Source of the DNA: Thereva unica
Lineage: Eukaryota; Arthropoda; Insecta; Diptera; Therevidae
Assembly (NCBI GenBank): GCA_949987705.1
Contig: CATLJY010000011.1
Coordinates: forward strand, 1-64,000
Direction of reading: 5' to 3'
Length of the DNA stretch: 64,000 nt
A program made the position numbers and the translations under genes. Within the stretch, counting starts at the first letter, position 1; the number at the start of each line of letters is the position of its first letter. A model generated the notes under the pieces. The model did no database searches. It was not told the DNA's origin and saw only the letters and a program-made list of their open reading frames with translations. Positions 23,486 to 64,000 of the stretch are shown here, piece by piece.

Positions 23486-23493
23486 ACTGGTAC

Positions 23494-38735: not shown

Positions 38736-40768
38736 TGTTACATAAAAAAGACACAACAAAAAAACAAGTACCGAACGAAAACCCAATACCTTATCAGCAG
38801 AGGTATCGGGTTACGTTGGGAGAAACTTCTTAATGTTCAAAGACATTTAACGACATTTTAATGTTCAAAGAGATTTCCAAGAATTATGAGAAATGCAAGC
38901 AAGCGAAAATCCTCAACTTGGGAATTACTTCATAATATCCTTTGGGGGCTAATTTAAAAACGAAACTTGACCCACCCGATCTAGCGCAACTTGCAATACG
39001 CTGCGTGAGAAACGCGCGGTAAGCAAGTTGGGCAGGTGGGAAAAAGTTCAAGGGCGCGTTTTTCCCAGCCGGTGGACAATTTTCGATACCACCACCGGCG
39101 GGTGAAAAGTTGAGTGAGTTGAGTGTTGTTTTAGCTACGATCGCCGGCGGGTGGTTTTTTTTCCCCAACTTTCGCGGCGGCGCGTTATTTTCAAAAAGGA
39201 AAAGGGCAACAGAAATAAGTAATTAAAGATTTCACGTCTTAAATAGTTTTTCACCACGAGGTTGCTTAATTTTTTAAAAGTAAATTCTAAACAAATACTA
39301 ATTATAATTACTGTGTTAAGAGGAAAGAAATTGAAGTGTTGAAGTTTGTTGCACTAAACTAGTTAATTCAAGTTAAGATTATACGAAATAATCCTCAAGT
39401 TCTTAGTGCTTAATTTGATAAAAGTAAATTCTAAACAAATACAAACTACTGTGTTAAGAGGAAAGAAATTGAAGTGTTGAAGTTTATTGCACTAAACTAG
39501 TTAATTTAAGCTAATTAAAAGTAAATTCTAAACAAATACTAATTACTGTGTTAAGAGGAAAGAAATTGAAGTGTTGAAGTTTGTTGCACTAAACTAGTTA
39601 ATTCAAGTTAAGATTATACGAAATAATCCTCAAGTTCTTAGTGCTTAATTTGATAAAAGTAAATTCTAAACAAATACAAACTACTGTGTTAAGAGGAAAG
39701 AAATTGAAGTGTTGAAGTTTATTGCACTAAACTAGTTAATTTAAGCTAATTAAAAGTAAATTCTAAACAAATACAAATTACTGTGTTAAGAGGAAAGAAA
39801 TTGAAGTGTTGAAGTTTATTGCACTAAACTAGTTAATTCAAGTTAAGATTATACGAAATAATCCTCAAGTTCTTAGTGCTTAATTTGATAAAAGTAAATT
39901 CTAAACAAATACTAATTACTGTGTTAAGAGGAAAGAAATTGAAGTGTTGAAGTTTATTGCACTAAACTAGTTAATTTAAGCTAAGTTATACGAGATAATC
40001 CTCGTTTTTAGTGCTTAATTTGATAAAAGTAAATTCTAAACAAATACTAATTACTGTGTTAAGAGGAAAGAAATTGAATTGTTGAAGTTTGTTGCACTAA
40101 ACTAGTTAATTCAAGTTAAGATTATACGAAATAATCCTCAAGTTCTTAGTGCTTAATTTGATAAAAGTAAATTCTAAACAAATACAAACTACTGTGTTAA
40201 GAGGAAAGAAATTGAAGTGTTGAAGTTTATTGCACTAAACTAGTTAATTTAAGCTAAGTTATACGAGATAATCCTCGTTTGTAGTGCTTAATTTTTTAAA
40301 AGTAAATTCCAAACAAATACAAATTACTGTGTTAAGAGGAAAGAAGTTGAAGTGTTGAGTTTTAGGGCACTAAACTAGTTAATTCAAGTTAAGATTATAC
40401 GAAATAATCCTCAAGTTTTTGGTGCTTAGTTACCTAAATGTAAATCCTAAACAAATAAATAAAAATTACTGTGTTCACAGGAAGGAAATTTAAACGTTGA
40501 TTTTTAGTGCACTAACCTAGTTAGTGATAAATATATACATATCCATTGTACATTGCTTCTTGCGACTGTGGATTTAAGCCAAGATTATACGAAATAATCT
40601 TCAAGTTACTAGTGCTAAATGAGCTGATGGAAAACTGTAAGTAAATAGAATCCAGTAAGTTAGGATTAAATTATAGACATTCCAATAAAGATTACTTGAG
40701 GAACAAAAAGAAAAGAAGGCTTGAAGAGAAACTATTTTTATTTAAAACAAAAAAAAAATAATATAACA
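38736..40768 (+). repeat. Gypsy copy 1 5' LTR (2033 bp)
   Basis: It starts TGTTACATAAAAAAG and ends ATAATATAACA. The first 0.5 kb is identical or nearly so to the 3' LTR. The centre (about 39290-40470) is a tandem array with units marked by ctgtgttaagaggaaag at 39311, 39449, 39546, 39684, 39781, 39919, 40054, 40192 and 40326, spaced 138 or 97 bp, then 134-138 bp. The array has two more units than the 3' LTR. Confidence 0.9.
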
Positions 40769-41041: not shown

Positions 41042-43205
41042 ATGTCCGAGGGCCAACAAGGGGACAACAACAAACACGAGACTCCCCCACCGAGGGACCA
41101 CCAAACACCAGCCAGGGACTTAACCACACCAGGCCCCTCTACTTCATCAGAAGCCAACGACACCCCATCGTCCTGCCAGGGGACCCAACGAGGGATCACC
41201 TCGACACCAATATCAACACAGCAATCAACAACCACCCCATCAGAAACACCCCAAACATCCCCCAGACGTCTCCGAAGTGGAACCATCTTAGGAGAAGGAG
41301 AGAAACAAGTAGGTTTAACATCAAGATTAGAATACATACTTAAGCGGGCGCAGGAGACAGGAAAATTTAATATAGTACATTTTGAGGCCGTGGATAAACA
41401 AATCCAAAGGGCCAGCCTAGAAAGAAAGGCTAAAGTCGAAGCATTCAAGGAGGAGGCCCTAAAATTTAAACAGGACCTCCTCAATTTCAAAAATAGTCTC
41501 CCACGCCCCCTTGAGGTAGTAGATAAGGTTAGCATAGAGGATAGGGACCATTGTGAAAGTAAAGATAACACAGAACCGCCTGAGCCCGATTACGCGCCCA
41601 TAGATCTACTCGCGGATTGGGTCGATCTCTCAACCCGATCCTTGTCCCTCCTAGAGGAAGAGGAGGCGACCTTTCAAGACAGTCGTCTTGTCAAATCTTT
41701 ACTACAAAAAGAATTTCCTACAGCCATGGCCGACGAATATATTAAAGTCGCCAAATTAACTAGTCCCTTTATTCTCTGGCGGCCAAAACCCGACGATGGC
41801 TACGGAACTACAAATGTTCCTAGGCTGTTGCCGTCGGGTACTACAGTGCCTGACAGAACAAGAAAAGGCCGCCTTCATTCAAATTTATCCAACTAGGCTT
41901 CGGGGAGAGGCCTATCAATTAATTGCCTCCTCCCAACCTGCCACTTTTGAGGAGGCAGAAAACCTCCTAAACAGGACTTATCTTCCCAGGGAAACATATC
42001 AAGAACTGGTTAATAAATTAATTCAATTACGCCAGTTCCCCTTAGAGCCGCTCACGGCCTATACCACTAGGATCAAACAGCAGTTGTCACTATGCGAAGA
42101 GGCGGCCACCACTAAATATGGTGCGATGGCAGCACCGGCCGTAAAGGCCCAACTGCAAGATTTCGCAAAAAATGCCCTGCGGAGTGGGGTTACCAACCCC
42201 CACCTCTGCCAGTACCTACTAACTCTGGGAGAGGATACACTTGACAGCCTAACCCAAAAGGCACTAGATATGGAGAAGCTGCAACAAAATTCTATGTATG
42301 CCTCCTATCAAATGACAGTGCCTCAACCGGCATATAACCCTTATGGACAACCAGTCCCTACCTATATGCCGGAAAATATCTATCAAACAGCCCCAACACA
42401 TACGCCCAGTACAAACACTCAGTATACCGCCCCGCCAACACCAACAACGCCGCAAACAACACTCCAAAGCCCGATAAGCCCACAGGTAATGTACACAACA
42501 TACGCCCCACCCACAAACCCAGCAAACACAATACAAACAATACCGCCGGCGCCACTACAAAGCGCCAACCAAGTAACAACTATAAGCCCCGTTCCAAATA
42601 ATGAAAATAAACCCTTAAACATCACCTGTAGCTACTGCAGAAACAGAGGGCATACTTATGCAGACTGTTTAAAACGTAAAAACACGCCCTTCTGCATAAT
42701 CTGCCGGTCCAACTCGCACGACGCGAGGGACTGCCCCCGACCAATAGAACCCACAAGGTCCTCATATAATAACAATCGTTACCAGAACCAGGGGCCGTCG
42801 TTTAATAATAATAATAATAATCGCTACCAAAACCAGGGGCCTTCATATAATAATAATAATAATAATCGCTACTCCAACCAACGGTCTCAGTTCCAAGGTA
42901 ACAATCGTTACCCAGACCCGCGGTCACAGCAAACGGGTAATTACCGCTACCCCGACCAACAACCCTCCAACCAGGGTGCTAACCGACAACCAACCAACCG
43001 ACCCATGAATAATGGATCCAACCAACCTAATGGCCGTCAACAAACAACCAATAACACAAGGTCGGTGTTCAATATTAGATGTAGATGTGATTTCTGCCAC
43101 AGACGTGGCCACACGGTGGATGACTGTCACCAAAGACAGCGCTGGGAATCACAACAAGCGGGAAACTCCCCGCAGTCGGACCAAGAAACCCCGGACCGAC
43201 AATAA
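41042..43205 (+). pseudogene. Gypsy copy 1 gag (three zinc knuckles)
   Basis: The ATG at 41042 (MSEGQQGDNN) opens a frame with a Pro/Thr-rich N-terminus and a charged helix (LERKAKVEAFKEEALKFKQD). A 1-nt frameshift near 41790 moves into the capsid part (EKAAFIQIYPTRLRGEAYQL, TYLPRETYQELVNKLIQLRQ, TKYGAMAAPAVKAQLQDFAK). A Pro/Thr/Gln-rich linker follows, then knuckles CSYCRNRGHTYADC and CIICRSNSHDARDC, a polar Asn-rich run encoded by AAT repeats, and a third knuckle CDFCHRRGHTVDDC. It ends at TAA 43203-43205. Gag forms the virus-like particle and binds genomic RNA. Pol follows in the -1 frame. Confidence 0.85.
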
Positions 43206-46200
43206 ACCCTCAAAATAGTACTAAAGGGGGGCCTCATGCGCCCGAACCAAGTGTTCCACTCGTCACTCTTCCTCTAGACATAAGCCTTAACGGCAAAGCC
43301 GACCTAGCAGTGGACACCGGCGCTGAGGTCAGTATATTAAAACATAAAAAACTAAAGGATCCTAACTTACCAGATCCCACTAAAAAATGCACATTACAAA
43401 CGCCATACGGCCAAGGACAAACATTAGGGAGCTGTCAGGGGAACATCATTCTAAACACCCCCCTCCCATGCACCTTCCAAATTGTGAAAAATACACAAGA
43501 AATCCCTAACGATGGTCTGTTAGGAAACGACTTTCTTTCCAAAAACTGTAACGTCGAAGGCCCAAACCAAACACTGCGATTTCCTCGCACGGAAATCAAC
43601 CCAGTAGAAATTGCAATTCCATTACGCAATGGATCCGCCAAGTCAAACACTAGAGAGCAGCAGCAGCAAACCCAAACTAGGAAATCTCAACTCGTAGTAG
43701 CCGAGATAAACCCCGGTGGTGTCTCCCAGGTAGCCTCAGAGAGGAATACCAGCTGCCTATCTCTAGATGGTTCAAGGTTGGAAAACAACTCCAACGACTA
43801 TGAGACCAATTCAGGCAAATATAACGTGGCATTGGAGAAATCCATTCGCCTACCAAGCCGGTCTCAAATGGTGGTCCCCATTCCCCTAAGGTTAGAGGAG
43901 GAAATGCTCTGTGAATCTTACGAGCCGAGCGAAGGAGTATTCCTCGCCAATTCCCTCTTGCCAACTGGAACAAAAACAGTGTATGTTGGTCTCATCAACG
44001 TTAACACCCAACCAGTAGTCCTGACGAGCCTATCCCTTACGCTCGCCCCAATCAAAGACTACACGACTATTCACCTAGCCTCTAACAACAACCCTAAGTC
44101 TCCAACGAATGCTAATGACGTATGTGAGTATCTTACAGGCTCTGAACCAGACGGTCTCAGGAACGCCAGTACCCCATCGTCATCTAACGCAAGGCTCCAA
44201 AGTATACCCAATAATGGTGCAATCCCGCAAGGTATACACCAGGGAAAAAGGACAAAAGTGAAGTTGGGAAAGAATGAAAAGGAAATCGATTCCATCCGTC
44301 ATCTACGATACATATTCCCGGACCAAGAGGATCCGGACCTTGAGCGTGAAGCGCGCTTCAAACAGCTAGACGAGGAACTCAGCCTCGACCACCCTCTAAC
44401 GGCCGACGAGAAGCGGTCCATACGGGATCTTTGTTACGAATATGCCGACATATTCCATTTAAAAGGGGACAAGCTAACCTACACGGAAGCTCTACGACAT
44501 GAGATCCCCATGGTCTACGACCAATTTATTAACCAAAAAATGTATAGATTGCCCGAAACGCAAAGGCAAGTCATAAATGACCAATTGAAAGAGATGTTGG
44601 ACAACGATATTGTTCAACCCAGCAAAAGTCCTTGGAACTCACCCCTCCTAGTGGTACCGAAAAAACCGGGCCCCGACGGTGAGAAAAAATGGCGCGTAGT
44701 AGTGGATTTCCGCAAAATTAATGAAAAGACTATAGGCGATGCGTATCCCTTACCAAGGATCGAGGACATCCTGGACCAGCTCGGTCACTCGAGATATTTC
44801 TCTACCCTCGACTTGGCCAGTGGTTACCACCAAGTACTAGTGGAACCACAGGATCGCCCCAAGACGGCCTTTAGCACGAACTATGGCCATTATGAGTTCA
44901 AACGTATGCCGTTCGGGTTAAAAGGTGCCCCGGCTACGTTTCAGCGACTAATGAATTATGTCCTTACTGGTCTACAAGGCCTCGAATGCTTCGTCTACCT
45001 AGATGACATAGTCATCTATGGTAAGAACCTTGAGGATCATAATTCCAAGCTACGACGCATATTCGACCGGTTGAGGGAAAACAACCTCAAATTGCAACCG
45101 GAGAAATGCCAATTTTTGAAAAAGGAAGTAGTCTACCTGGGTCATGTATGCTCTGAAAAGGGAGCCCTACCAGACCCCAGAAAAACGGAGTGTGTCCAAA
45201 ACTTCCCGGCGCCACGAACCGTCAGGCAAGTCCAGTCCTTCCTGGGCCTTGCCAACTACTATAGAAAATTCATCCCAGAATTTTCTAAGATCGTACGCCC
45301 CCTAACAAATTTGCTAAGAAAGGGCGTGAAATTTTCATGGACGCCAAAATGCGAGGAAGCATTTCAAACGGTGAAGCGTTCTTTAGTCTCCCCACCACTA
45401 CTGATATACCCTGATTTCGAAAAACCGTTCAATCTAACAACGGACGCCAGCAGTGAGGCACTCGGAGCAGTCCTCTCTCAAGGAATCGTAGGCCAAGACC
45501 AGCCCATAGCTTATGCAAGTCGCACTCTAAACAAGACGGAGCGCAATGCTCCACCGTCGAAAAGGAGCTGCTAGCCATAGTATGGGCTGTTAAAAACTTC
45601 AGGTGTTATTTGATGGGTCGAAAGTTTACGGTCTATACAGATCATAAACCTCTCAAGGGAGTCTTCAACGTCAAGGACCCCACAACTCGACTCGTTAGGT
45701 TTCACCATAAACTGTCCGAATACGATTACCAAATTGAGTATAAACCGGGTAAATACAATACGAATGCTGATGCTCTCAGCCGGATTCCCCAAAGAGCAGA
45801 AGAGCCCAATACCTTCACGGTGGAAGCCCTAATTCACCAACCCGGTGAACCCCTAACTATATCACCCGAAAGAAACGGGAATACATTGCCTCCTAGTGAA
45901 CGACCGAAACAATGCAACGCGGTCACTAGGGCTCAGGCACAAATAATGCAGGATGAGGAAAAAGACGAACTCGTTCCAACTGCAGAAGCCCCCAATATCG
46001 ACGAAGGGCCTAAAGAAATAGACTTGGGAACGGAAATTCCCCAACCCGTCGAAGCCTCCAAGGATAGCTCCAGCGAGCTACGAAGGAAAGTTGAAGTGAT
46101 TACAAGTCCCGAAGAAATCACTACAATACTGAAAGACTACCACGACTCCCCTTTCGGCGGACACCAGGGAGTCGTTAAGACATATAATCGCATACGTCGT

Positions 46201-47154
46201 AAATATTGGTGGAGACACATGTTCCGCGATATCACTCGCTACATAAGAAGGTGCAAGAAATGTCAAACCATGAAGGCCTCTAGACATTTCCGAATGCCCA
46301 TGGTTATTACAGACATAGCAGAAAAGCCCTTCGAAAAAGTCTATTTAGACATAGTAGGTCCCCTGGAAGAAACACATTCCGGAAATAAATACATCCTTAC
46401 CTTCCAGGATAACCTGACAAAATTCGTCGATTGGTATGCCATTCCCAATGGGGAAGCCCAAACGGTAGCACAAATTTTCTTCGACGAAATCGTCACGCGC
46501 TATCGCATACCCAAACAAATAGTCACCGACCAGGGAGCAAATTTCCTGAGTGACCTCTTCATGGGCGTGTGTAGGCTCTTAAAAGTTAAAAAACTTCAGA
46601 CCTCAGCCTACCACCCACAATCCAATGGCGCGCTAGAACGAGCTCATAGACCTCTGATCGAGTACCTACGTACCATAGTAGATGAGAGCCCAAACAATTG
46701 GGACCAGTTTCTGCGCACGGCAGCGTTCGTGTACAATAATAGCGTACACGAGGGGACCAAACTTACCCCCATGGACTGCCTATATGGTTTCATTGCCGAC
46801 GTCCCGTCCAACCTTAAACGCAACCCGGAGCCACTTTACAACCACGAGAGTTATTACCATCAACTCCGATATAAGTTGCAAAAGTCCTACGCCCTAGCCC
46901 GCAAGAACCTACTTGCCAGCAAGAACCGCTCCAAGGCATATTATGATGGGAACGTACGCCCACTCACACTCCACGTAGGGGACAAAGTCCTCCTACGTAA
47001 CGAAGCTCGGAAGCATAAATTATCCCAAATCTGGGTCGGGCCCTATACTGTAGTTTCAGTCCCAAGCGCTGTAAACACTACCATCAAAATAAATAGGAGA
47101 TTAGTCACCGTTCATAATAACCGCTTGAAACCGTTTTATGAAAATAAAACGTAA
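43124..47154 (+). pseudogene. Gypsy copy 1 pol
   Basis: The pol frame is entered by -1 frameshift. Protease: LAVDTGAEVSILK near 43305. RT: NSPLLVVPKKPG, WRVVVDFRKINEKTIGDAYP, FKRMPFGLKGAPATFQRLMN and the catalytic FVYLDDIVIYG at about 44990. RNase H: NLTTDASSEALGAVLSQ. A small deletion near 45548 breaks the frame (ERN then APPSKRSC and stop); the other frame carries on with LLAIVWAVKNF and TVYTDHKPLKGVF. Integrase: GGHQGVVKTYNRI, CKKCQTMKAS, VYLDIVGPL, IVTDQGANF, YHPQSNGALERAH, giving an H2C2 and DD35E set, and a C-terminal VGDKVLLRNEARKHKLSQIW. Apart from that deletion it is intact. It ends at 47154, 200 bases before env. Confidence 0.9.
43160..43166 (+). promoter_or_regulatory. -1 ribosomal frameshift heptamer GGGAAAC (gag-pol)
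   Basis: In the gag frame the codons are G|GGA|AAC, a canonical X-XXY-YYZ slippery heptamer. It lies inside the gag-pol overlap: the pol frame is open from 43124 and gag stops at 43205. A -1 slip here gives GGG AAA CTC and continues straight to the protease. The same heptamer in the same frame register occurs in copy 2 (about 62773-62779). I did not model a downstream pseudoknot. Confidence 0.8.
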
Positions 47155-47355: not shown

Positions 47356-49208
47356 ATGCGGACGCTAATTGTATTACTACTCATACAAATGGTTACGAGC
47401 GAGCCCGGACCAATGCCGTACACCTTCACCCCGATCAAAGCTACGGGAGCCCTTATCGAATACGTAGGAGAAGTCTGGTTATATCACCAGACATGGAATG
47501 TAATAACCGAACTCGACTTACACGAATTGGAGGTGCACACTGAATTAACGGAACAGGCCGAGAAGCTGGTCCACCAATTATGTTCCAACGACTCCAGCGT
47601 ACTCTGCGCGGCCCAACAGAAACATATTCACTCTATTATCACCCATATTAAGGACCGTACCAAAACGATACGGGAATTGGTACCCAGAAGCCGACCTAAA
47701 AGGTCACTATTCGACGGCATTGGACATGCACTGCATTACCTGTTCGGGACCATGGACGCGAACGACGACCGGGAGATTTATAGTAGGCTAAGTGAGTTAG
47801 AGGGTAACGAGAAAGCGTTAGCAGAACTCGAAAAACGACAGATCACCGTGGTAAATAATACCCTGCGGGATATTCAAAAACCATTAGTCGCGCTTGTGGA
47901 CCGGCAAAATCAAATAACTCAGCAAATGGGAAAACTACAGAACGTAACCGAGGGCCTATATAATACCCTACCAAGGCAAGGGATAGTTACGGACCTACTA
48001 ATGCAGGTGTCCGAAATAGAAACCAGACAGCAAGCGCTCCTGGACATAATCCTCGCAACCGCAGACAACAGAATTCACCCCCTTTTAATCTCGCCCGGTA
48101 CACTGTCCAAAATTTATTCCAAAACGAACCCGGAATGCGGAGACTGCACCTACTGCTACGAGCACTCCTCATTCAGGACAAACTGGTAATAAAAATAATC
48201 CTACCAATTTTAAACTTACCCAAAATGCAATTCCACAAAATTACCGTTTTTCCAATAAATACTGCGACAGGACACTCGTTGATCCCTGAAATCCCATACT
48301 CACATGTAGCTTCCGAATTCAAGGCCCAACGGTTCGTACTATTTCACCCGAAAGAGGCCAAAGCCCTACAAAGGGTCACCGGGGACCTAAGGACCGATAC
48401 CTTCATAGGGCCTTTAACGGTGCCTATAGTCCTCTCCGCCAACACTAAGGAATGTACCCTTAGACTCCTCTATAACCCCCTAGGAGACAAAGTGGAGTGC
48501 CCAATAAGAATCAGGGACCACCCACAAAATATAATAACTAGCCTAGCCCAAACAAACACATGGTTGTATTCATTGAGTAAACCCAAGATGTTCCACATCT
48601 CGTGCGACCAAATAAATCATACAATAAAAGTTTCCAAGCACGGAATACTCAGGGTCAACCGACCGTGCCAAATACAGGTGGAGGACAAAATCCTAGTCTA
48701 CAATGGGCGCTCAACGCGAACCACGCAAATAATACAGCCACAATACTTCCCTGCAGCCGAACCTATAAATATACCGGTATCGGCTAAAGGACCATTAACA
48801 ACGAACCTACCTGCTGATGAAGGGATAAAATTATTAACAGGAGATGAAACTAACAAGATCATCCAGGAAGGCACAAAGCCCCTGCAGGAGATCTACGCCA
48901 AACTGAACCACCTAACCTGGGAACGTGTCCACACGCATTCAACAGTCGCCATCTCATTCAGTGGCATGTTAGTACTGGCCGCCATAGGGTACATTTTCTA
49001 CAAATGCACGCCAGGTTTAGTGGGCATAACCCGCTCTGCATGTGCCAGAAGGTCCGGAAATGTAAGTCCTCCGGATGAGACAACCACCTCCGAGGACCAA
49101 ATGGCTCCAGTAGGGGTCCCAATGCAACCGGAACCAACACACAACGCAGCCACGGCAGAAACCTCAGAACACAGGCCGCTCAGCGGCGGTACCACAATAC
49201 CTACCTAA
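47356..49208 (+). pseudogene. Gypsy copy 1 env (F-like fusion protein)
   Basis: The ATG gives a short hydrophobic signal peptide (MRTLIVLLLIQMVTS). The ectodomain has a cysteine pair (HQLCSNDSSVLCA) and a furin-type site followed by a hydrophobic fusion-peptide-like stretch (SRPKRSLFDGIGHALHYLFG). A long heptad-rich helix follows (about residues 135-235). A frameshift lies near 48120-48180; the other frame continues with the distal ectodomain (ECTLRLLYNPLGDKVECPIR), a membrane span (TVAISFSGMLVLAAIGYIFY) and a polar tail ending at 49208. Such proteins mediate membrane fusion in errantiviruses. This copy is interrupted by that single frameshift. Confidence 0.8.
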
Positions 49209-49360
49209 ACAAAAACCTTCCCCAAGCATTGCGAAGCCCTGGAAACAAAAGACCTGAAAGCAAAAACGAGAAGAGAGAACAACCCTAAATCAAAAGAAAA
49301 ACACAAAAAAAAACCCAAACACAAAAAAAAGGAGAGAGTTTTCAAAAAAGAAAAGGGCAC

Positions 49361-49366
49361 TTTATT
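49361..49366 (-). promoter_or_regulatory. AATAAA signal of the antisense gene
   Basis: On the minus strand AATAAA occurs 42 bases after the antisense stop codon (49409) and is followed by a T-rich stretch. It lies beyond the env stop at 49208, so the antisense transcript would end without entering env coding sequence. Confidence 0.65.
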
Positions 49367-49408
49367 ACAAGTTTATACAAATAGTTGTAATATGCCATAC
49401 CCCCGGAG

Positions 49409-50035
49409 TCAATCCAAGTCGAGATTGTCCGGGGTGGAGGAATTACCAGATTCCTCGGTCCGAGGAGTGTTCACTTCGGACTCCCCCGTCCGGGGAGTGG
49501 GCACATCTTCAGTCTCACCCGACTCAGATTCCTCGGTCCGAGGAGTGTTCACTTCGGACTCCCCCGTCCGGGGAGTGGGCACATCTTCAGTCTCATCCGA
49601 CTCAGATTCCTCGGTCCGAGGAGTGTTTACTTCGGTCCCCCCAGTCCGGGGAGGATGCTCCTCCTCAAGTCGCGCCCTGGCCATAGCATCAGCGATTGGG
49701 TTCCAAGGTCCAGTGGCCCTGGAGACCCGGGGTCCATCGCCGCCAAAAATATGGGGCCTGGACCCACGGGACCTGATCCGATCCTGCCGAGCAATCTCAG
49801 CCAGGGTCCTCTGAGCCCGGGCCAGCTCGGCAAGACAAAACTCTTCTTGCTGGGCCAGTCCGGCCATCCTCCTCCTAACTCGCGCCAACTCTCTTTGGAA
49901 GTGCGCCTCATCATGTAAAGCCTTAGTTTTACGGTAACTGCAAAAAGAAAAAAAAAGGGAGGGGGGAAGTGAAAAAAGAAAAATATATGAATATATAAAA
50001 ATATATAAAAATATTAACCCAACCACTTACCTCAT
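49409..50035 (-). CDS. Spliced antisense accessory gene of Gypsy copy 1
   Basis: The gene is convergent with env, between env and the 3' LTR. Exon 1 ends ATGAG (50035-50031); exon 2 runs 49937-49409. Joined they give 177 codons, and the ATG is the first in frame after an upstream stop. The N-terminus (MS|YRKTKALHDEAHF) leads into a strongly helical, Arg/Leu/Gln-rich segment (LARVRRRMAGLAQQEEF, LAELARAQRTLAEIARQDR, about residues 17-55) that looks like a coiled coil. A Gly/Arg/Pro linker follows, then acidic tandem repeats of 26 residues (TGESEVNTPRTEESESGETE). No signal or membrane segment remains after splicing; the hydrophobic stretch in the unspliced frame is intron. I recognise no family. 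In layout it recalls the spliced antisense gene HBZ of HTLV-1, but I claim no homology. Confidence 0.75.
49451..49650 (-). repeat. 78-bp tandem repeat coding acidic 26-residue units
   Basis: The motif ttcctcggtccgagg (plus strand) recurs at 49451, 49529 and 49607, spaced 78 bp, keeping the antisense frame open. Each unit encodes two TPRT-containing half-repeats joined by Glu/Ser/Asp-rich stretches. Confidence 0.85.
49938..50030 (-). other. 93-nt intron of the antisense gene
   Basis: On the minus strand the donor is GATGAG|GTAAGTGG (GT at 50030-50029). The acceptor has a pyrimidine tract and tttttctttttgcag (AG at 49939-49938) before TTACCG. Both match consensus well. The reverse orientation has no comparable sites. 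Confidence 0.8.
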
Positions 50036-50185
50036 CTCGTCAATCCTAGAACTCAACTTAAACTAAACGTCCACACGAACGGGACAAATCTCGAGCCCCT
50101 TATCACACCAGAAAATGCAACGTAAACTAAACCAAGGAATTTCAAACGAACAAGACGCCTTTGTTTCACGACGACGCCTTGTTCT

Positions 50186-50204
50186 TTTCGGTACCCCCAA
50201 GGAG
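50186..50204 (+). promoter_or_regulatory. Polypurine-tract region of Gypsy copy 1
   Basis: cggtacccccaaggag precedes the 3' LTR start TGTTACAT at 50205. Only the last bases (aaggag) are purine-rich, so the tract is weak. Confidence 0.4.
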
Positions 50205-52034
50205 TGTTACATAAAAAAGACACAACAAAAAAACAAGTACCGAACGAAAACCCAATACCTTATCAGCAGAGGTATCGGGTTACGTTGGGAGAAACTTCTT
50301 AATGTTCAAAGACATTTAACGACATTTTAATGTTCAAAGAGATTTCCAAGAATTATGAGAAATGCAAGCAAGCGAAAATCCTCAACTTGGGAATTACTTC
50401 ATAATATCCTTTGGGGGCTAATTTAAAAACGAAACTTGACCCACCCGATCTAGCGCAACTTGCAATACGCTGCGTGAGAAACGCGCGGTAAGCAAGTTGG
50501 GCAGGTGGGAAAAAGTTCAAGGGCGCGTTTTTCCCAGCCGGTGGACAATTTTCGATACCACCACCGGCGGGTGAAAAGTTGAGTGAGTTGAGTGTTGTTT
50601 TAGCTACGATCGCCGGCGGGTGGTTTTTTTTCCCCAACTTTCGCGGCGGCGCGTTATTTTCAAAAAGGAAAAGGGCAACAGAAATAAGTAATTAAAGATT
50701 TCACGTCTTAAATAGTTTTTCACCACGAGGTTGCTTAATTTTTTAAAAGTAAATTCTAAACAAATACAAATTACTGTGTTAAGAGGAAAGAAATTGAATT
50801 GTTGAAGTTTGTTGCACTAAACTAGTTAATTCAAGTTAAGATTATACGAAATAATCCTCAAGTTCTTAGTGCTTAATTTGATAAAAGTAAATTCTAAACA
50901 AATACAAACTACTGTGTTAAGAGGAAAGAAATTGAAGTGTTGAAGTTTATTGCACTAAACTAGTTAATTCAAGTTAAGATTATACGAAATAATCCTCAAG
51001 TTCTTAGTGCTTAATTTGATAAAAGTAAATTCTAAACAAATACTAATTACTGTGTTAAGAGGAAAGAAATTGAAGTGTTGAAGTTTATTGCACTAAACTA
51101 GTTAATTTAAGCTAAGTTATACGAGATAATCCTCGTTTTTAGTGCTTAATTTGATAAAAGTAAATTCTAAACAAATACTAATTACTGTGTTAAGAGGAAA
51201 GAAATTGAATTGTTGAAGTTTGTTGCACTAAACTAGTTAATTTAAGCTAAGTTATACGAGATAATCCTCGTTTTTAGTGCTTAATTTGATAAAAGTAAAT
51301 TCTAAACAAATACTAATTACTGTGTTAAGAGGAAAGAAATTGAATTGTTGAAGTTTGTTGCACTAAACTAGTTAATTCAAGTTAAGATTATACGAAATAA
51401 TCCTCAAGTTCTTAGTGCTTAATTTGATAAAAGTAAATTCTAAACAAATACAAACTACTGTGTTAAGAGGAAAGAAATTGAAGTGTTGAAGTTTATTGCA
51501 CTAAACTAGTTAATTTAAGCTAAGTTATACGAGATAATCCTCGTTTGTAGTGCTTAATTTTTTTAAAGTAAATTCCAAACAAATACAAATTACTGTGTTA
51601 AGAGGAAAGAAGTTGAAGTGTTGAGTTTTAGGGCACTAAACTAGTTAATTCAAGTTAAGATTATACGAAATAATCCTCAAGTTTTTGGTGCTTAGTTACC
51701 TAAATGTAAATCCTAAACAAATAAATAAAAATTACTGTGTTCACAGGAAGGAAATTTAAACGTTGATTTTTAGTGCACTAACCTAGTTAGTGATAAATAT
51801 ATACATATCCATTGTACATTGCTTCTTGCGACTGTGGATTTAAGCCAAGATTATACGAAATAATCTTCAAGTTACTAGTGCTAAATGAGCTGATGGAAAA
51901 CTGTAAGTAAATAGAATCCAGTAAGTTAGGATTAAATTATAGACATTCCAATAAAGATTACTTGAGGAACAAAAAGAAAAGAAGGCTTGAAGAGAAACTA
52001 TTTTTATTTAAAACAAAAAAAAAATAATATAACA
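50205..52034 (+). repeat. Gypsy copy 1 3' LTR (1830 bp)
   Basis: Same ends and unique parts as the 5' LTR. The central array has units at 50773, 50912, 51050, 51185, 51320, 51458 and 51592, spaced 134-139 bp; the 97-bp short units of the 5' LTR are missing. The two LTRs therefore differ by about 200 bp. Confidence 0.9.
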
Positions 52035-53104: not shown

Positions 53105-54329
53105 TGTTATGTAACGTAATTCGTATATAATTGTATATAACTCACATTTTATTATATAACTTACTCTTTTTTTTTTTATTCAGACAAAGGATGGAAACGT
53201 CTCCAAATTTAATTTATAAAAGAAATGATTGTTTGTTTTTGCATGTAAATAACTCACCGTCTTTTGTATGTCAAGCAGATTTTCAAAGGATAACTTGCTT
53301 CGCTGTTTTGTTTATACAAAAAAACACCTTTATATATTTTGTTTTTGGGCAATAGTTTATTTTTTACACGAAATACTTAGGGCACTAGATAGACACTTTT
53401 CCTTTAAGTCTAACTGAATGGAAATAATTTTCTCTCTAAATTTATGAAATCCTTTTATACAATACTATATTAATTAGTTACTATGAACCTTCGATTTGCT
53501 TCGATTTGTAAACGCTTATTTACAAAAACACATTTTTGCTTTAAACTTTCAAACGTATTGTTCCTTACACAAAGTACTTAGGACACTAGATTGTTTGTTC
53601 ACACATAAAACTCGTTGTCATGTAACTATATAAACACTATTCCTTTAAAACTAACCGAATGTAAATAACTTACTCTCTAAATTTACGAAGTATTTTTATA
53701 CAGTGCCACATTAATTAGTAATAGTCCGGGAGGCAGCGTTGCATTTTGGCGGCTCATTTCTTCCCACTTGATTTTTTTGCAATAGATAGTTTAGATAAGA
53801 CTAATAACAGAAACAACCGTCAGACGCCAGTATCGTGGTGGGGGTGGTCGTGGGAAAATGTGAAAGTGGTAAAAAAAAAATTCGTCGGCTTATTTCTTAC
53901 CACTTGAGCATTTGCACAGTTATTGTTTAAGTGATAATAAAAATTATAAAAAAAGTCAGCTGCGTACCTAGTGGGGGATTATACGTCAGTCGCTTGTATA
54001 AACCTGTCAAAAAAACACATTTTATAAAATCATTTCAAATTCAATGAAACTTATACATAAAATTTCTTTTATAATTAGAAGAATAAAAAGCACAATCACC
54101 TGTATGCACAATGGGGGTAACACCGTCAGCTGTCAGATAATAAGTGCTGATTGGGTTTTTAACGTTAGCATTTTATAATGTATTCAAAAAAGAAACTGAC
54201 TATCTTCACAACGTTATGCCAGCAGCTATCGACAATTTTTTGTGAATATAATCTGTAAACACATTATTTCAAAATATTTCTTGCGGCTGGAAAACAGCTT
54301 GGCTAAGATATGATGCATTAAATCCATTT

Positions 54330-57010
54330 TTTTGTATTGTGAGCATGGTTTTACTAAAAAAATGACCTAGCTGACTATCTTTCCCCCGTTATGTTGACAG
54401 CTGACGGCCAGTTTTTGTTAATATAATCTGTAGACTCATTATTGCAAAAGGTTTCATTCGTCTAGAAAACAGCTTGGCTAAGATATGATGGATTAAATCC
54501 ATTTTTTTTGTATTGTGAGCATGGTTTTACTAAAAATGACCTAGCTGACTATCTTTCCCCCGTTATGTTGACAGCTGACGGCCAGTTTTTGTTAATATAA
54601 TCTGTAGACTCATTATTGCAAAAGGTTTCATTCGTCTAGAAAACAGCTTGGCTAAGATATGATGGATTAAATCCATTTTTTTGTATTGTGAGCATGGTTT
54701 TACTAAAAATGACCTAGCTGACTATCTTTCCCCCGTTATGTTGACAGCTGACGGCCAGTTTTTGTTAATATAATCTGTAGACTCATTATTGCAAAAGTTT
54801 TCATGCGTCTAGAAAACAGCTTGGCTAAGATATGATGCATTAAATCCATTTTTTTGTATTGTGAGCATGGTTTTACTAAAAAAATGACCTAGCTGACTAT
54901 CTTTCCCCCGTTATGTTGACAGCTGACGGCCAGTTTTTGTTAATATAATCTGCAGACTCATTATTGCAAAAGGTTTCATTCGTCTAGAAAACAGCTTGGC
55001 TAAGATATGATGGATTAAATCCATTTTTTTGTATTGTGAGCATGGTTTTACTAAAAATGACCTAGCTGACTATCTTTCCCCCGTTATGTTGACAGCTGAC
55101 GGCCAGTTTTTGTTAATATAATCTGTAGACTCATTATTGCAAAAGGTTTCATTCGTCTAGAAAACAGCTTGGCTAAGATATGATGGATTAAATCCATTTT
55201 TTTGTATTGTGAGCATGGTTTTACTAAAAATGACCTAGCTGACTATCTTTCCCCCGTTATGTTGACAGCTGAGGGTCAGTGTTTGTTAATATAATCTGTA
55301 GACTCATTATTGCAAAAGTTTTCATGCGTCTAGAAAACAGCTTGGCTAAGATATGATGCATTAAATCCATTTTTTTGTATTGTGAGCATGGTTTTACTAA
55401 AAATGACCTAGCTGACTATCTTTCCCCCGTTATGTTGACAGCTGACGGCCAGTTTTTGTTAATATAATCTGTAGACTCATTATCGCAAAAGGTTTCATTC
55501 GTCTAGAAAACAGCTTGGCTAAGATATGATGGATTAAATCCATTTTTTTGTATTGTGAGCCTGGTTTTACTAAAAATGACCTAGCTGACTATCTTTCCCC
55601 CGTTATGTTGACAGCTGACGGCCAGTTTTTGTTAATATAATCTGTAGACTCATTATTGCAAAAGTTTTCATGCGTCTAGAAAACAGCTTGGCTAAGATAT
55701 GATGCATTAAATCCATTTTTTTGTATTGTGAGCATGGTTTTACTAAAAATGACCTAGCTGACTATCTTTCCCCCGTTATGTTGACAGCTGACGGCCAGTG
55801 TTTGTTAATATAATCTGTAGACTCATTATTGCAAAAGTTTTCATGCGTCTAGAAAACAGCTTGGCTAAGATATGATGCATTAAATCCATTTTTTTGTATT
55901 GTGAGCATGGTTTTACTAAAAATGACCTAGCTGACTATCTTTCCCCCGTTATGTTGACAGCTGACGGCCAGTGTTTGTTAATATAATCTGTAGACTCATT
56001 ATTGCAAAAGTTTTCATGCGTCTAGAAAACAGCTTGGCTAAGATATGATGCATTAAATCCATTTTTTGTATTGTGAGCATGGTTTTACTAAAATGACCTA
56101 GCTGACTATCTTTCCCCCGTTATGTTGACAGCTGACGGCCAGTGTTTGTTAATATAATCTGTAGACTCATTATTGCAAAAGTTTTCATGCGTCTAGAAAA
56201 CAGCTTGGCTAAGATATGATGCATTAAATCCATTTTTTTGTATTGTGAGCATGGTTTTACTAAAAATGACCTAGCTGACTATCTTTCCCCCGTTATGTTG
56301 ACAGCTGATTGCCAGTTTTTGTTAATATAATCTGTAGACTCATTATTGCAAAAGTTTTCATGCGTCTAGAAAACAGCTTGGCTAAGATATGATGCATTAA
56401 ATCCATTTTTTTGTATTGTGAGCATGGTTTTACTAAAAATGACCTAGCTGACTATCTTTCCCCCGTTATGTTGACAGCTGACGGCCAGTGTTTGTTAATA
56501 TAATCTGTAGACTCATTATTGCAAAAGTTTTCATGCGTCTAGAAAACAGCTTGGCTAAGATATGATGCATTAAATCCATTTTTTTGTATTGTGAGCATGG
56601 TTTTACTAAAAATGACCTAGCTGACTATCTTTCCCCCGTTATGTTGACAGCTGACGGCCAGTGTTTGTTAATATAATCTGTAGACTCATTATTGCAAAAG
56701 TTTTCATGCGTCTAGAAAACAGCTTGGCTAAGATATGATGCATTAAATCCATTTTTTTGTATTGTGAGCATGGTTTTACTAAAAATGACCTAGCTGACTA
56801 TCTTTCCCCCGTTATGTTGACAGCTGACGGCCAGTTTTTGTTAATATAATCTGTAGACTCATTATTGCAAAAGGTTTCATGCGTCTAGAAAACAGCTTGG
56901 CTAAGATAGGATGGATTAAATCCATTTTTTTGTATTGTGAGCATGGTTTTACTAAAAAAATGACCTAGCTGACTATCTTTCCCCCGTTATGTTCACAGCT
57001 GCGGCCAGTT
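54330..57010. repeat. 173-bp satellite array, 16 monomers
   Basis: The marker atgttgacagctga occurs at 54391, 54565, 54738, 54913, 55086, 55259, 55432, 55605, 55778, 55951, 56122, 56295, 56468, 56641 and 56814, and as atgttcacagct at 56989. Spacing is 171-175 bp, mostly exactly 173. Two monomer types alternate irregularly (ggtttcattcg with gatggatt, or gttttcatgcg with gatgcatt). Each monomer ends with a block (aacagcttggctaagatatg) also found at the inner end of both TIR arms. Confidence 0.9.
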
Positions 57011-57215
57011 TTTGTTAATATTATCTGAAAACTTATTATTGCGAGTTTCAAGCGACTGGAATACAATTGGGCTATAATTAAATTGATTTAATTCATTTTT
57101 TCTTGGTTTTTCTTATTTATTTCTGTACATCTAATTTTAATTTAATACAAAGCTATTTGGAAGCTAATAACCCATGGTTTCAAAGAAAAATAAATTTTAC
57201 ATTTTTCTACGTTAC

Positions 57216-57325: not shown

Positions 57326-58511
57326 CTGTTTTTTAGACGCAAGAAATATTTTGAAATAATGTGTTTACAGATTATATTCACAAAAAATTGTCGATAGCTG
57401 CTGGCATAACGTTGTGAAGATAGTCAGTTTCTTTTTTGAATACATTATAAAATGCTAACGTTAAAAACCCAATCAGCACTTATTATCTGACAGCTGACGG
57501 TGTTACCCCCATTGTGCATACAGGTGATTGTGCTTTTTATTCTTCTAATTATAAAAGAAATTTTATGTATAAGTTTCATTGAATTTGAAATGATTTTATA
57601 AAATGTGTTTTTTGACAGGTTTATACAAGCGACTGACGTATAATCCCCCACTAGGTACGCAGCTGACTTTTTTTATAATTTTTATTATCACTTAAACAAT
57701 AACTGTGCAAATGCTCAAGTGGTAAGAAATAAGCCGACGAATTTTTTTTTTTACCACTTTCACATTTTCCCACGACCACCACCACCACGATACTGGCGTC
57801 TGACGGTTGTTTCTGTTATTAGTCTTATCTAAACTATCTATTGCAAAAAAAATCAAGTGGGAAGAAATGAGCCGCCAAAATGCAACGCTGCCTCCCGGAC
57901 TATAATTAGGAATCTTCGATTCGTTTCGCCACCGTCAAACCGTTTTTACAACACTACCTTTTAAATACAACCAAATCAACCTGATTTTTTTAAAACCGCG
58001 CACCGCCGCCGGTGAAGAACAAAACTAGACTCCATTTATTTTTGGGACGCGCCCGCCGCGGTCAAGGGTTTAGACAACACTTAACGATCGATCACTCGAT
58101 CGATCCTCAGTTTTTCGAAACTTTATTTTTAAAAGTCCTTCGATTGCATTTTTCCTCCGGGCCTTCAACCTAGGTGCAAAAGTCACCTGCTGGTGCTTGA
58201 CCCAAGGCTGAGGTCGCCGGCCGGAAAAACGCACCCGTCGGCTTTTCTTCAAGTGGCCTGAAACTGGCGCAATTTGCTTACGAGCTTTTTTCTTTCGTTT
58301 ATTAATTTCGCAAGGCAAATTGCGCTAAATATTCTTGCCAATTTCCTTTGGCGTTTCAGGTTACACTTGGATTTTGTGCACGGGTCATTTACCGACCCGT
58401 GCATTTTTTATGTCAACAAAATTCCGGGTTCAAGGAATTTTGGATTTGGAAATTTAGAAATTATTAGAAATTTTCTTAATTTTGAGGGTTGCTCAAAATT
58501 TCTACATAACA

Positions 58512-58524
58512 TTCCTTCCCCCCT
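58512..58524 (-). promoter_or_regulatory. Gypsy copy 2 polypurine tract
   Basis: In element sense aggggggaaggaa directly precedes the LTR start TGTTATGTAG. It is a better purine tract than that of copy 1. Confidence 0.75.
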
Positions 58525-58856
58525 GAAGCAAGAGAATCGCTACGGAGTAGAGCGATTCTCGTAGTTGAGATTATAAGGGAGAGGAGGGTGAATGCAAAAT
58601 CAAAAAAAAAAGTAAGATTATATGTAAATGGAGTTTTTATTAGGGGATGAAGTGGTTTGATAGTCACGAGAAATAATAGTAAATATATCGGTGGGAGGTG
58701 TAAACCAGAGGCTAGCTCTAGTTTGCCTGTGTGTGGGATATGGAGACATGAGTTGAGGTCTGCTAATTCAAGACCCGTCTAATTTTTCGTTTCATTGGAT
58801 AAAAGGTAGTATTGGTGGCTATTGTGTGTAGGGCCCGTTTGGGTCGTATACATTTT
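58525..58856. other. Gypsy copy 2 region between pol and 3' LTR
   Basis: About 330 bases separate the pol stop from the polypurine tract. No env, no antisense gene and no other ORF are present. Copy 1 has about 3 kb here. Confidence 0.7.
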
Positions 58857-61800
58857 TTAATTTTCATCATAAAAGGGTTTTAGTCGGTTGTTGTGAACTG
58901 TTACTAGCTTCTTATTTATTTTAATTGTTGAGTTTACTGGGCTGGGGACTGCGACCACTGTATAGGGTCCGATCCATATTTGGGATAATTTGTTCTTGCG
59001 CGCTTCGTTGTGTAGTAGAACCTTGTCTCCTACGTGTAGTGTTTGAGGTCGTGCCTTCCCATCATAATATCTTTTGGAGCGGTTTTTACTAGCGAGTAGA
59101 TTCTTACGTGCCAGTGCGTATGATTTTTGCAATTTATACCGAAGTTGATGATAATAACTTTCGTGATTGTATATAGGTTCTGGCTCTCGTTTTAAATTGG
59201 ATGGGACGTCGGCTGTAAAGCCGTAGAGGCAATCCATGGGGGTTAGTTTTGTCCCCTCGTGTACACTGTTGTTGTACACGAATGCTGCTGTCCGAAGAAA
59301 ATTGTCCCAGCTTTGGGGGCTCTCGTCTACGAGGGTGCGCAAGTATTCTATTAAAGGTCTGTGAGCGCGTTCTAGGGCTCCATTGGACTGAGGGTGGTAT
59401 GCTGAGGTTTGGAGTTTCTTAACCTTTAAGAGCCTACACACGCTTTTGAAAAGGTCACTCAGGAAGTTTGATCCCTGGTCGGTGACTATTTGTTTTGGTA
59501 TGCGATAGCGCGTGACGATTTCGTCGAAGAAAATTTGTGCTACCGTGTGAGCTTCCCCATTGGGAATGGCATACCAATCGATGAATTTTGTTAGGTTATC
59601 CTGGAAGGTTAGGATGTACTTGTTTCCCGAATGTGTTTCTTCCAGGGGGCCTACTATGTCTAAATAGACTTTATCGAAGGGTTTTTCAGCAATGTCCGTG
59701 ATAACCATGGGCATTCGGAATTGTCTAGAGGCCTTCATGGTTTGACATTTCTTGCACCTTCTTATATAGCGAGAGATATCGCGGAACATACGCCTCCACC
59801 AATATTTTTGGCGAATACGGTTATAGGTCTTCACGACTCCCTGGTGTCCACCGAAGGGGGAATCGTGATAATCTTTTAGGATTGTATTTATCTCCTCCTG
59901 ACTGGTAATGACCTCAACTTTCTTCTTCCCTTTGAGGTTGTTGTCTTTGGGAGGGTCTTCTGGGGTTTCATCTTCGATCTCAGGCGGTTTGGGCCCTTCC
60001 TCTGAGTGGGGGGCTTCTAGAGACGTAGTTCTTTTGTCCTTTTCGTCGTCTTTCTGCTTTTGCGCCTGTGCCCTTGTGATGATGTTGCATTGCTTGGGCG
60101 TCTCTTCTTGTTTTGTTTGGAGGTGTTTTCCGGGTTGGTGAACTTGAGCTTCTACCGTGAAGGTTTTTGGCTCCTCTACGTAGTGCGGTATACGGCTGAG
60201 TGCATCAGCATTTGTATTATATTTTCCCGGTTTGTACTCGATAGTGTAGTCGTATTCCGACAGCTTGTGGTGGAATCTCACTAGTCGAGTAGTTGGGTCT
60301 TTGACGTTGAATACGCCTTTGAGGGGTTTATGGTCCGTGTAGACCGTAAACTTCCGACCCATTGGATAACACCTGAAGTTTTTCACAGCCCAGACTATTG
60401 CCAGCAACTCTTTCTCAATGGTGGAGTAGTTGCGTTCTGCCTTGTTTAGGGTGCGGCTTGCGTAGGCAATAGGCTGGTCTTTTCCTACTTCTCCCTGAGA
60501 GAGCACTGCTCCGAGTGCCTCACTGCTCGCATCCGTTGTCAAGTTAAACGGCTTGTCGAAATCTAGATAGATTAGCAGTGGGGGGGATACTAAATTATTT
60601 TTTATTTGTTGGAATGCGTCTTCACACTTTGGTGTCCAAGAAAACTTTACGCCTTTGCGTAGAAGGTTCGTTAAGGGACGGACTGTTTTTGAAAAATCTG
60701 GGACGAATTTTCGGTAGTAATTGGCAAGGCCTAAGAACGATTGCACTTGCCTGATAGTCCGTGGGGCAGGGAACTTCTGGACGCATTCCGTTTTTCGTGG
60801 GTCTGGCAGAGCTCCTTTCTCTGAGCAAACGTGACCCAAATAAACAACTTCTTTTCGGAGGAATTGGCACTTCTCTGGTTGTAATTTGAGGTTATTTTCC
60901 CTCAACCGGTCGAAGACTCTCCGAAGTTTAGTATTATGGTCCTCAAGGTTTTTACCGTAGATGACGATATCATCCAGGTAGACAAAACATTCGAGGCCTT
61001 GCAGGCCTGTGAGGACATAGTTCATGAGCCGTTGGAACGTAGCCGGGGCTCCTTTTAGCCCGAACGGCATACGTTTGAACTCGTAGTGGCCGTAGTTTGT
61101 GCTGAAGGCTGTTTTAGCGCGATCTTGTGGTTCCACGAGTACTTGGTGGTAACCACTGGCCAAGTCGAGGGTAATGAAATATCTTGAGTGACCGAGTTGG
61201 TCTAGAATATCCTCGATTCGTGGCAGGGGAAATGCGTCGCCTATGGTTTTTTCGTTGACTTTTCGAAAGTCAACAACTACTCTCCACTTCTTCTCTCCAT
61301 TAGGGCCCGCCTTTTTGGGGACCACTAATAAGGGTGAGTTCCATGGGCTCTTACTGGGTTGGACTATGTCGTTGTCCAACATTTCTTCTAGTTGTTCGTT
61401 AATAACCTGCCTTTGTGTCTCGCGCAGCCTGTACATTTTTTGGTTAATGATTTGGTCGTAGATCATTGGAATTTCGTGGGAGATAGCGTCTGTGTAGGTG
61501 AGCTTATCTCCTTTTAAGTGGAATATGTCTGCGTATTCGTGACATAGGTAGTTCCTTTATGGACCTCTTCTCTTCGGTCGTTAGTGGATGATCAAGGTTG
61601 AGCTCCTCGTCCACTTTTTGAATGCGCTGTGCACGCTCTTGGTCGTCCGGGTCTTCATAGTCCGGGAATATGTGTCTAATGTGTAATAGGTTGGCGGCTT
61701 CCTGGTCACTGCTCTTGTGACCCCGTGTTGATTTGACCCCTAGTTTTTTCTGCCATTTGCGGCTTGTTTTGAGCGGTGGGGTGCCGGTATTGGTAACCGG

Positions 61801-62862
61801 TCTTCCGCACTCGCCGTTGTCTTTTTTGACAAAGAGCCTTGGGCTAGAACTTGCAGGGTTGGAATTGAGTGGTATTGTAGAGTAGCCATTTGTGGGGACG
61901 AGCGTTAGAGTTAGGCTCGTTAGGGCTACTGGATAGTTGTTAGCATTGAGGAGGCCAACAAATACTCTTTGGTTTCCAGAAGGTAAGAGGGCATTCGCGA
62001 GGAATACTCCCTCGGAGGGCTCTTGAGCTTTACAGAGCATTTCTTCCTCTAAACTTAATGGTATTGGTACCACCATCTGAGACCGGCCTGGGATACAAAT
62101 AGATTCCGTTAGGATTACCTTTTGTCTTAGGTCTTCATTGGTCTCGAAACCGTTTAGGTTGTTATCTAACTTTGATCCATCTTGAGATTGGCAGCTTGTA
62201 CTCCCTTCGGAGGGTACTTGGGAGACACCACCGGGGGTCGTCTCGGCTTCTACGAGCTGAGACTCCCTGGTTTGGGTTTGCTCCTGCTGCTCTCTAGGAT
62301 TCGGTTTGGTAGTTTTGGTTTGTAAAGGAAAGGTCATTTCTTCCGGATTAATTTCCGTGCAAGGAAATCGTAATGTTTTGTTGGGACCCTCAACGTTGCA
62401 GTGCTGGGAGAGGAAGTCGTTTCCTAGAAGGCCATCTTTGGGAATCTCTGGCATGTTCTGCACTATTTGGAAAGTGCAAGGAATTGGGGTTTTCAATTTG
62501 AAGTTTCCTTGGCAGCTTCCGAGAGTCTTCCCTTTACCGTATGGCGTTTCTAGCGTGCACTTTTGAGAAGGGTTTATGGTGACATTTTGTCGAAGCTTAT
62601 TCTTTTTTAGTATTGTAACCTCAGAGCCTGTATCCACCACTAGTTGTGTTTTGCCGTTGAGGCTTATGTCGAGCGGGAGAGTTACTAGTGGGTTTGTACC
62701 AGTTGAGGCCTGAGGTCCCCCATTTGGTTTATAGTTAGTGTTTACTGTCGGGCCGGGGGTATTTGGTCCGACTCTGAGAAGTTTCCCGATTGTGAGTTCT
62801 CCCATCGCTGTCTTTGTCGACAGTCTTCTGCCTGGTGGCCCCGTCTTCCGCAGAAATCGCAT
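58857..62862 (-). pseudogene. Gypsy copy 2 pol
   Basis: Protease: LVVDTGSEVTILKKNKL near 62630. The frame continues to about 61550, where a 4-bp insertion (actac/ctat context) shifts it within the block before RT (expected EYADIFHLKGDK). From there 869 codons are open: NSPLLVVPKKAG, WRVVVDFRKVNEKTIGDAFP, FVYLDDIVIYG, LTTDASSEALGAVLSQ, NYSTIEKELLAIVWAVKNF, then integrase GGHQGVVKTYNRI, CKKCQTMKAS, VYLDIVGPL, IVTDQGSNF, HPQSNGALERAH, and a C-terminus with VGDKVLLHNEARKNKLSQIW. RT, RNase H and integrase are thus intact; one frameshift separates them from protease. Confidence 0.9.
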
Positions 62863-64000
62863 GTGTGGCGTATGTTGAATACTCGCGATTGTTATTGCTT
62901 ACCTGGTTTTGATTATGTGGCGGTTGTGAACGGGGCAGTGATTGTTGTTGATTATTTTGCTGATAAGTATTATTATATTGTGATGGTCTACCGCCATTAT
63001 TGTTATTAGGGCGCTGTTCAGGGAAACGACCGTTATTAGGGAAGTTCGGTCGTGAGCGCTCTGGTGGGCGGCGACAATCCCGTGCATCGTGATTTGTCGT
63101 TCTACAAATAGTGCAATAGGGAGTATTTTTTCTTTTAATGCAATCGGTGTATGTGTGGCCCCTGTTTCGACAATAGCTACAGGTGACATTTGCCAACGGA
63201 TTGCCTTGAGATTTTTGAGGCGTTGGCGTTAATTGCGCCACCTGAGGTACTGTGGTAGTTGTGGTAGGGACTGGTATATTTGGTACACTCGGTTGTTGCG
63301 TATTGGGCAGGGGGAGATTGTAGTTCGTTAGTGTTGCTTGGGGTGGAATGTTATGTTCTGGTGATATGATACTGAGCGGAGTGATGGCGGCGGGCGCGTT
63401 ATGTTGAGCGGAGTAGAGCGAATGTGTCGTTTGTAGAGGAGTGGGGCCGTTTAGGCCTGACTGTGATGGATATGTATAAGGACCATTATTGTAAGCCAGC
63501 GTATATGGATTGTTGTACAGGTTGGGGGTTGATATATTTGGCCCACCTTGACTGTACATTGGCAGGGTTGATGGACTTTGGTACTGGGCATGGATGTTCA
63601 GTGTTGTTTGCTGAAGTCTCTCCATGTCCAGGGCCTTTTGGATTAAATTATCCAGGCCGTCATCGCCTGCTGCCAGCAAGTACTGGCATAAGTGTTGGTT
63701 GTTAATCCCTCCTTTTAATGCGCTTTTCGCAAAATCTTCTAACTGTACTTTGACTTGGGATGCTGCTTCGCCATATTTAGTTGTGGCGGCTTCTATGCAT
63801 AAAGACAGTTGTTGTTTTATGCGCGTGGTATACGCTGTGAGGGGTTCCATAGGGGACTGTCGGAGTGTTATTAGTTTATTAACTAACTCCTGATAAGTTT
63901 CCCTAGTCAAATAAGTGCGGTTGAGGAGCTTTTCAGCTTCCTCGAAGTTGGCTGGCTGACTTGAGGCTATTAGTTGGTATGCGTCGCCTCGAAGTCTGGT
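62735..64000 (-). pseudogene. Gypsy copy 2 gag (partial)
   Basis: The frame enters from the right edge and reads TRETYQELVNKLITLRQSPM, TKYGEAASQVKVQLEDFAKS and HLCQYLLAAGDDGLDNLIQK, then a long Pro/Thr/Asn-rich linker and two knuckles (CSYCRNRGHTYTDC, CTICRTTNHDARDC). A 1-nt frameshift near 62890 puts the third knuckle (CDFCGRRGHQAEDC) in the neighbouring frame, just before the frameshift heptamer. The annotated frame instead runs on to a stop at 62735. The capsid and first knuckles are intact. The N-terminus lies outside the window. Confidence 0.8.
62773..62779 (-). promoter_or_regulatory. -1 frameshift heptamer GGGAAAC in Gypsy copy 2
   Basis: In element sense tcgGGAAACttctcagag contains the same heptamer as copy 1, in the register G|GGA|AAC relative to the third-knuckle frame. 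The -1 product continues GKLLRVGP, collinear with GKLPAVGP of copy 1. Confidence 0.75.

Follow-up and report, generated by a model that had tools for sequence, protein, structure and literature searches.

The locus lies within a Gypsy element on the plus strand of the window, by which we mean the whole 64-kb stretch of DNA that was analysed. The element is bounded by a 5' LTR of 2033 nt (38736..40768) and a 3' LTR of 1830 nt (50205..52034), both of which start with TGTTAC and end with ATAACA, and the CATT found immediately outside them on either side of the element is its target-site duplication. Between the LTRs and on the same strand are gag (41042..43205), made up of two overlapping frames (41042-41896 and 41796-43205), the second of which contains the Pfam domain Retrotrans_gag; pol (43310..47154), made up of the frames 43310-45574 and 45610-47154, in which Pfam identified RT, RNase H and integrase; and env of the baculovirus-F type (47356..49208), made up of two overlapping frames (47356-48189 and 48135-49208) that both contain Pfam Baculo_F. 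With two LTRs, a target-site duplication, gag, pol and env all found, the element is assigned to the env-bearing Gypsy elements.

Alignment of the two LTRs gave 1820 equal columns out of 1830, with 10 mismatches and 203 gap columns. The mismatches are confined to columns 569-1562, which correspond to a region of 138-nt tandem repeats, and the 203 gap columns, like the difference in LTR length, result from a differing number of these repeats. From the near identity of the LTRs we infer that the insertion is young. Despite this near identity, gag, pol and env are each broken into two frames in this copy, while both parts of gag are found within a single 620-aa frame in a homologue (P0002); the split genes may reflect a damaged copy or insertion and deletion errors in the assembly.

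Layout of the putative antisense gene

The minus strand between the end of env (49208) and the start of the 3' LTR (50205) carries what appears to be a complete two-exon gene that converges with env. A preliminary description of this DNA had reported at this place, and in this orientation to env, an ATG, a donor, a 93-nt intron, an acceptor, a 177-codon frame, a stop and an AATAAA signal 42 nt further on, and all of its coordinates were verified. The coding part of exon 1 (50031..50035, minus strand) consists of the ATG (50035-50033) and two additional bases; the ATG has a G at position -3 and is located 169 nt outside the 3' LTR, and the next ATG upstream, within 50036-50400, is that at 50212. 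The putative donor follows position 50031 and opens the 93-nt intron (49938..50030, minus strand), which begins with GTAAGT and ends with TTTTTGCAG. The coding part of exon 2, including the stop at 49411-49409, extends over 49409..49937 on the minus strand, and the joined exons would encode 177 aa. If the intron is retained, the frame closes after two codons at a TAA within the donor. The GC content of the intron is 26% and that of exon 2 is 57%. Exon 2 includes a tandem repeat of 78 nt in 2.7 copies (49447..49653, minus strand) that encodes 26-residue acidic repeats. The AATAAA (49361..49366, minus strand) is followed by a tract rich in T and GT, of the sort expected at a cleavage site; T and G make up 80% of the 50 nt behind the signal.

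Upstream of the antisense ATG, a search of 665 nt on the minus strand (50036-50700) found no TATA or Inr consensus, a point against the gene. Many insect promoters have neither, and the kinds of elements present suggest an insect host. The antisense promoter is presumed to be seated in or near the 3' LTR.

Splice signals and chance

The layout could be the work of coincidence. A GC-rich stretch with a repeat of 78 nt, which is a multiple of three, would be open in several frames; a purine tract of the sense strand, perhaps serving as an extra primer for plus-strand DNA, would mimic an acceptor; and the donor and the AATAAA would have been met with accidentally. Open length by itself is indeed weak evidence for an antisense gene, because 50 of 2000 local shuffles (2.5%) contained 176 or more consecutive open codons on the minus strand, and the stretch 49525-49937 was wholly open in 33 of 2000. 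Further open frames are also present on both strands.

The splice signals are stronger evidence. Among the 3292 YAG sites of the window, the antisense acceptor is the only one preceded by a tract of 15 pyrimidines in 15 positions, which bears out the strong pyrimidine tract of the preliminary description, and the antisense donor is one of 26 sites, among 6963 GT sites in the window, that score at least 8/9. By these counts, any one acceptor would have on average approximately 0.03 such donors at a distance of 55-200 nt before it. We also scanned the window for the complete layout, defined as a donor of at least 7/9, an intron shorter than 200 nt, at least 150 codons, an AATAAA within 120 nt and a frame that is closed when unspliced. 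The scan returned a single instance, the antisense gene at 49361-50035, and the corresponding frequencies in shuffled controls were one per 60 windows (150-nt blocks) and 0 of 2000 local shuffles; these criteria were chosen with the finding already in hand, so the figures are somewhat flattering. Coincidence would also have to account for a donor, an acceptor, a phase and an AATAAA that all agree with one and the same frame, and we consider it rather unlikely.

A further point for the chance explanation is that the pyrimidine tract of the intron reads on the sense strand as a pure purine run of 28 nt (49942..49969, plus strand), located 235 nt upstream of the 3' LTR. No other run in the window made up of purines only, or of pyrimidines only, is as long. 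The edge of the 3' LTR itself has a poor polypurine tract, with CCCCCAAGGAG before TGTTAC, and the run at 49942-49969 is a possible candidate for a second polypurine primer. The two uses are compatible, and the same tract could provide the pyrimidines of the acceptor on one strand and a purine primer on the other.

Coding strand

The preliminary description had further held that the antisense gene overlaps no other ORF, and that its openness is consequently not a by-product of sense coding. Both statements are too strong. Two plus-strand ORFs, one of 140 aa (49392-49814) and one of 87 aa (49655-49918), are present in the region together with a second minus-strand ORF of 95 aa, and two plus-strand frames are open for 201 and 175 codons. 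The longer is the env frame, which stays open past the env stop from 49209 to 49811, with an ATG at 49392 and a stop at 49812-49814, and the 140-aa ORF is this env frame itself. The other is open over 49391-49915 and contains no ATG, GTG or TTG before 49655.

These frames raise the prospect that the sense strand is the one that codes, with env extended at its C-terminus by read-through or splicing and the openness of the minus strand as a by-product. The 201 open codons in the env frame agree with such an extension, but their composition does not: GC is highest at codon position 2 (0.64 vs 0.34-0.43), unlike env, and the first part of the extension is A-rich, so few stops are expected there from composition. 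Moreover, the mean pLDDT of the 140-aa product is 48.6, and no sense-strand donor of at least 8/9 is present in 49201-50205. An env extension is therefore very improbable.

Of the six frames, two combine a maximum of purines at codon position 1 with a minimum of GC at position 2, a pattern also found in pol and env of the element. These are the antisense frame and the 175-codon plus frame, in which the pattern is weaker. The purine fractions at positions 1, 2 and 3 are 0.63, 0.52 and 0.49 in the antisense frame and 0.51, 0.48 and 0.37 in the plus frame; position-1 values in the pol and env pieces of the element range from 0.58 to 0.61, and gag lacks the purine pattern (0.52, 0.54, 0.50). The codon-position composition of the antisense frame is uneven with P 3e-7, or P 0.007 when 49603-49937 is taken alone. 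The units of the 78-nt repeat differ too little from one another to reveal selection on either strand. A codon-usage log-odds comparison, in which the antisense frame ranked first of six, was discarded on account of an env training piece that was out of frame. Taken together, the splice sites, the codon composition and the predicted helix described below favour the minus strand as the coding one.

Predicted product and search for relatives

The 177-aa antisense product would be basic at one end and acidic at the other, with a pI of 11.1 for residues 1-60 and of 4.05 for residues 96-177. Residues 2-58 are predicted to form one long basic helix (pLDDT 79-97 in blocks of ten), a flexible linker is predicted between this helix and the acidic tail, and the acidic half consists of 26-residue repeats with PRT motifs. 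Single-sequence structure models favour helix formers, so the helix prediction is to be taken as support rather than proof. A coiled-coil (heptad) signal over the helix appears weak: permutation gave P 0.007-0.011, or 0.02-0.05 if alanine is counted as hydrophobic, another minus frame gave P 0.012, and a value of P 0.001 was obtained on sub-ranges chosen post hoc.

Searches of Pfam and NCBIfam with the antisense product returned no family above the cut-off, and neither bZIP nor TRP28 was among the results. The only Pfam match at E up to 1, to YscX (E 0.0057, below the cut-off), was read as a reflection of helix composition, the one PDB match (E 0.25) was taken as chance, and the best match of a BFVD fold search (E 3.4) was not counted. 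Compared with 5.8 billion proteins, the product had no matches at E <=0.001, and residues 1-95 had none in a protein search even at E <=10; the viral contigs and genome contigs collections likewise gave no matches. This absence of relatives says little, because the collections barely contain anything like the element itself. As control queries in the searched collections, the element's own gag found 2 proteins among 1776 candidates, and its pol and env found no locus.

The GC content of 60%, compared with 47-48% for the element, would be consistent with a fragment of a host gene that was captured backwards with its intron included and is carried as a passenger without function for the element; an intron in antisense orientation could be expected to outlast the RNA stage. 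Against this, protein searches found no host relative, in collections hardly able to show one. We regard host capture as exceedingly unlikely.

A sister Gypsy element is present in the window on the minus strand (58511-64000) and is 79% identical over the main pol match of 2.8 kb. Its pol stop is 345 nt before the putative LTR start, and env is missing there. This interval contains no antisense open run longer than 45 codons, with the LTR start placed from a weak match (best E 0.007) and the other LTR of the sister lying outside the 64-kb window. As the sister lacks both env and the antisense frame, either one of the two elements acquired them or the other has since shed them. Adjoining the sister element, at 54237-57042, is a tandem array of approximately 16 copies of a 173-nt unit with 97% matches.

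Comparison with known antisense genes

Antisense genes in retroelements have been described in several systems. In plant Gypsy elements the aORF-3R frames (gene23 of Grande, RIRE2 and Retand) are established antisense ORFs between pol and the 3' LTR; in the portions available of the sources, gene23 of Grande is described as driven by its own upstream promoter, and tandem repeats are reported in the aORF-3R region of about half of Retand elements (PMC7264820, PMC11963269). The present locus shares with them a Gypsy element, an antisense frame between pol/env and the 3' LTR, and tandem repeats at that place. It differs in that the plant elements have plant hosts and no animal-type env, and the word 'intron' occurs nowhere in PMC7264820 or PMC11963269; in addition, the antisense proteins of Retand carry TRP28, for which Pfam gave no match in the present product.

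The HBZ gene of HTLV-1, the classic case among deltaretroviral antisense genes, is spliced, is read from the 3' side and has its ATG in exon 1 and a typical donor and acceptor. This exon 1 is part of the 3' LTR; intron lengths of 1400 or 1540 nt are given for HBZ, and its poly(A) site is 1450 nt past the stop, as far as the consulted part of the source goes (PMC1459196). The likeness is one of sequence layout, that of a spliced antisense gene with its start codon in exon 1. The differences are an ATG outside the LTR, an intron of 93 nt and an AATAAA that follows the stop closely, as given above, together with the missing bZIP domain. The preliminary description had compared the locus with HBZ, and a spliced antisense gene indeed remains the best reading of the sequence, with an HBZ-like place, strand, small ATG exon and convergence with env; the comparison does not extend to an ATG exon within the LTR or to a Pfam bZIP match. 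In summary of these two comparisons, the locus is probably a real antisense accessory gene that resembles HBZ and the plant aORF-3R in its position and arrangement and is linked to neither of them by sequence.

HIV-1 ASP is another protein frame that a retroelement carries in antisense (PMC8622228), and the consulted text describes it as hydrophobic with a predicted membrane and envelope association, in contrast to the basic helix and acidic tail predicted here. In the MDG1 group, sORF1 and sORF2 are likewise small accessory genes carried by Gypsy-type elements of insects, but are sited upstream of gag according to the part of the source seen (PMC11952523), unlike an antisense gene beside the 3' LTR.

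For micropia of Drosophila hydei, an insect element of the Gypsy group, the parts of the sources consulted report antisense transcripts without coding capacity (PMC7264820, PMC6797199), and a reference title describes the antisense RNA as complementary to reverse transcriptase (PMC6797199). The present locus would have antisense transcription in common with micropia and would differ by its protein frame. Micropia provides a precedent for the explanation that an antisense transcript of the present locus exerts its effect as RNA, or supplies the piRNA or siRNA pathway of silencing, and that the protein frame is incidental. A noncoding RNA would have no need of a joined frame or of a codon-position pattern, and we judge this explanation distinctly improbable for the present locus.

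We found no spliced antisense gene of an animal Gypsy element in the literature searched, outside which most subscription journals lie, and two reviews of antisense retroviral genes nowhere mention Gypsy or Ty3.

Proposed function

We are inclined, with limited confidence, to read the locus as a genuine accessory gene with two exons, carried in antisense by an env-bearing Gypsy element. In the mechanism that we propose, RNA polymerase II would start within the 3' LTR or close to it and transcribe leftwards, the 93-nt intron would be spliced out, and a short message would end before env. The antisense protein would then pair through its helix, and its acidic tail would act on LTR transcription or on the chromatin of the element; this last step, taken alone, is a tentative suggestion. 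Retrotransposition would leave the intron in place, since in the sense genomic RNA it runs backwards and is not spliced out, and for the same reason the protein could be made only from integrated or nuclear DNA.

A broader proposal, possible though doubtful in our estimation, is that a spliced antisense regulator, with a dimerising basic helix and an acidic tail, arose in an env-bearing Gypsy element of an animal without any connection to those of deltaretroviruses or plant elements and controls the element's own LTR or host silencing, and that this protein, being tied to integrated or nuclear DNA, marks the provirus stage. If the antisense gene is real, genes of this sort beside the 3' LTR arose in deltaretroviruses, in plant Gypsy elements and in env-bearing Gypsy elements of animals, which would suggest a general advantage. 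It would also mean that the annotation of elements for gag, pol and env in the sense direction only can miss genes.

Other features of the window

Scans of the window with Rfam and for tRNA genes gave no matches. A BEL/Pao element (Peptidase_A17) lies within 17921-28000 on the minus strand and has an env of the baculovirus-F type (23428-24588). A hAT-like transposase (DUF4371, Dimer_Tnp_hAT) is located at 19352-21744, between the BEL/Pao element and the frame 17921-18736, which looks like the remainder of the BEL/Pao env.
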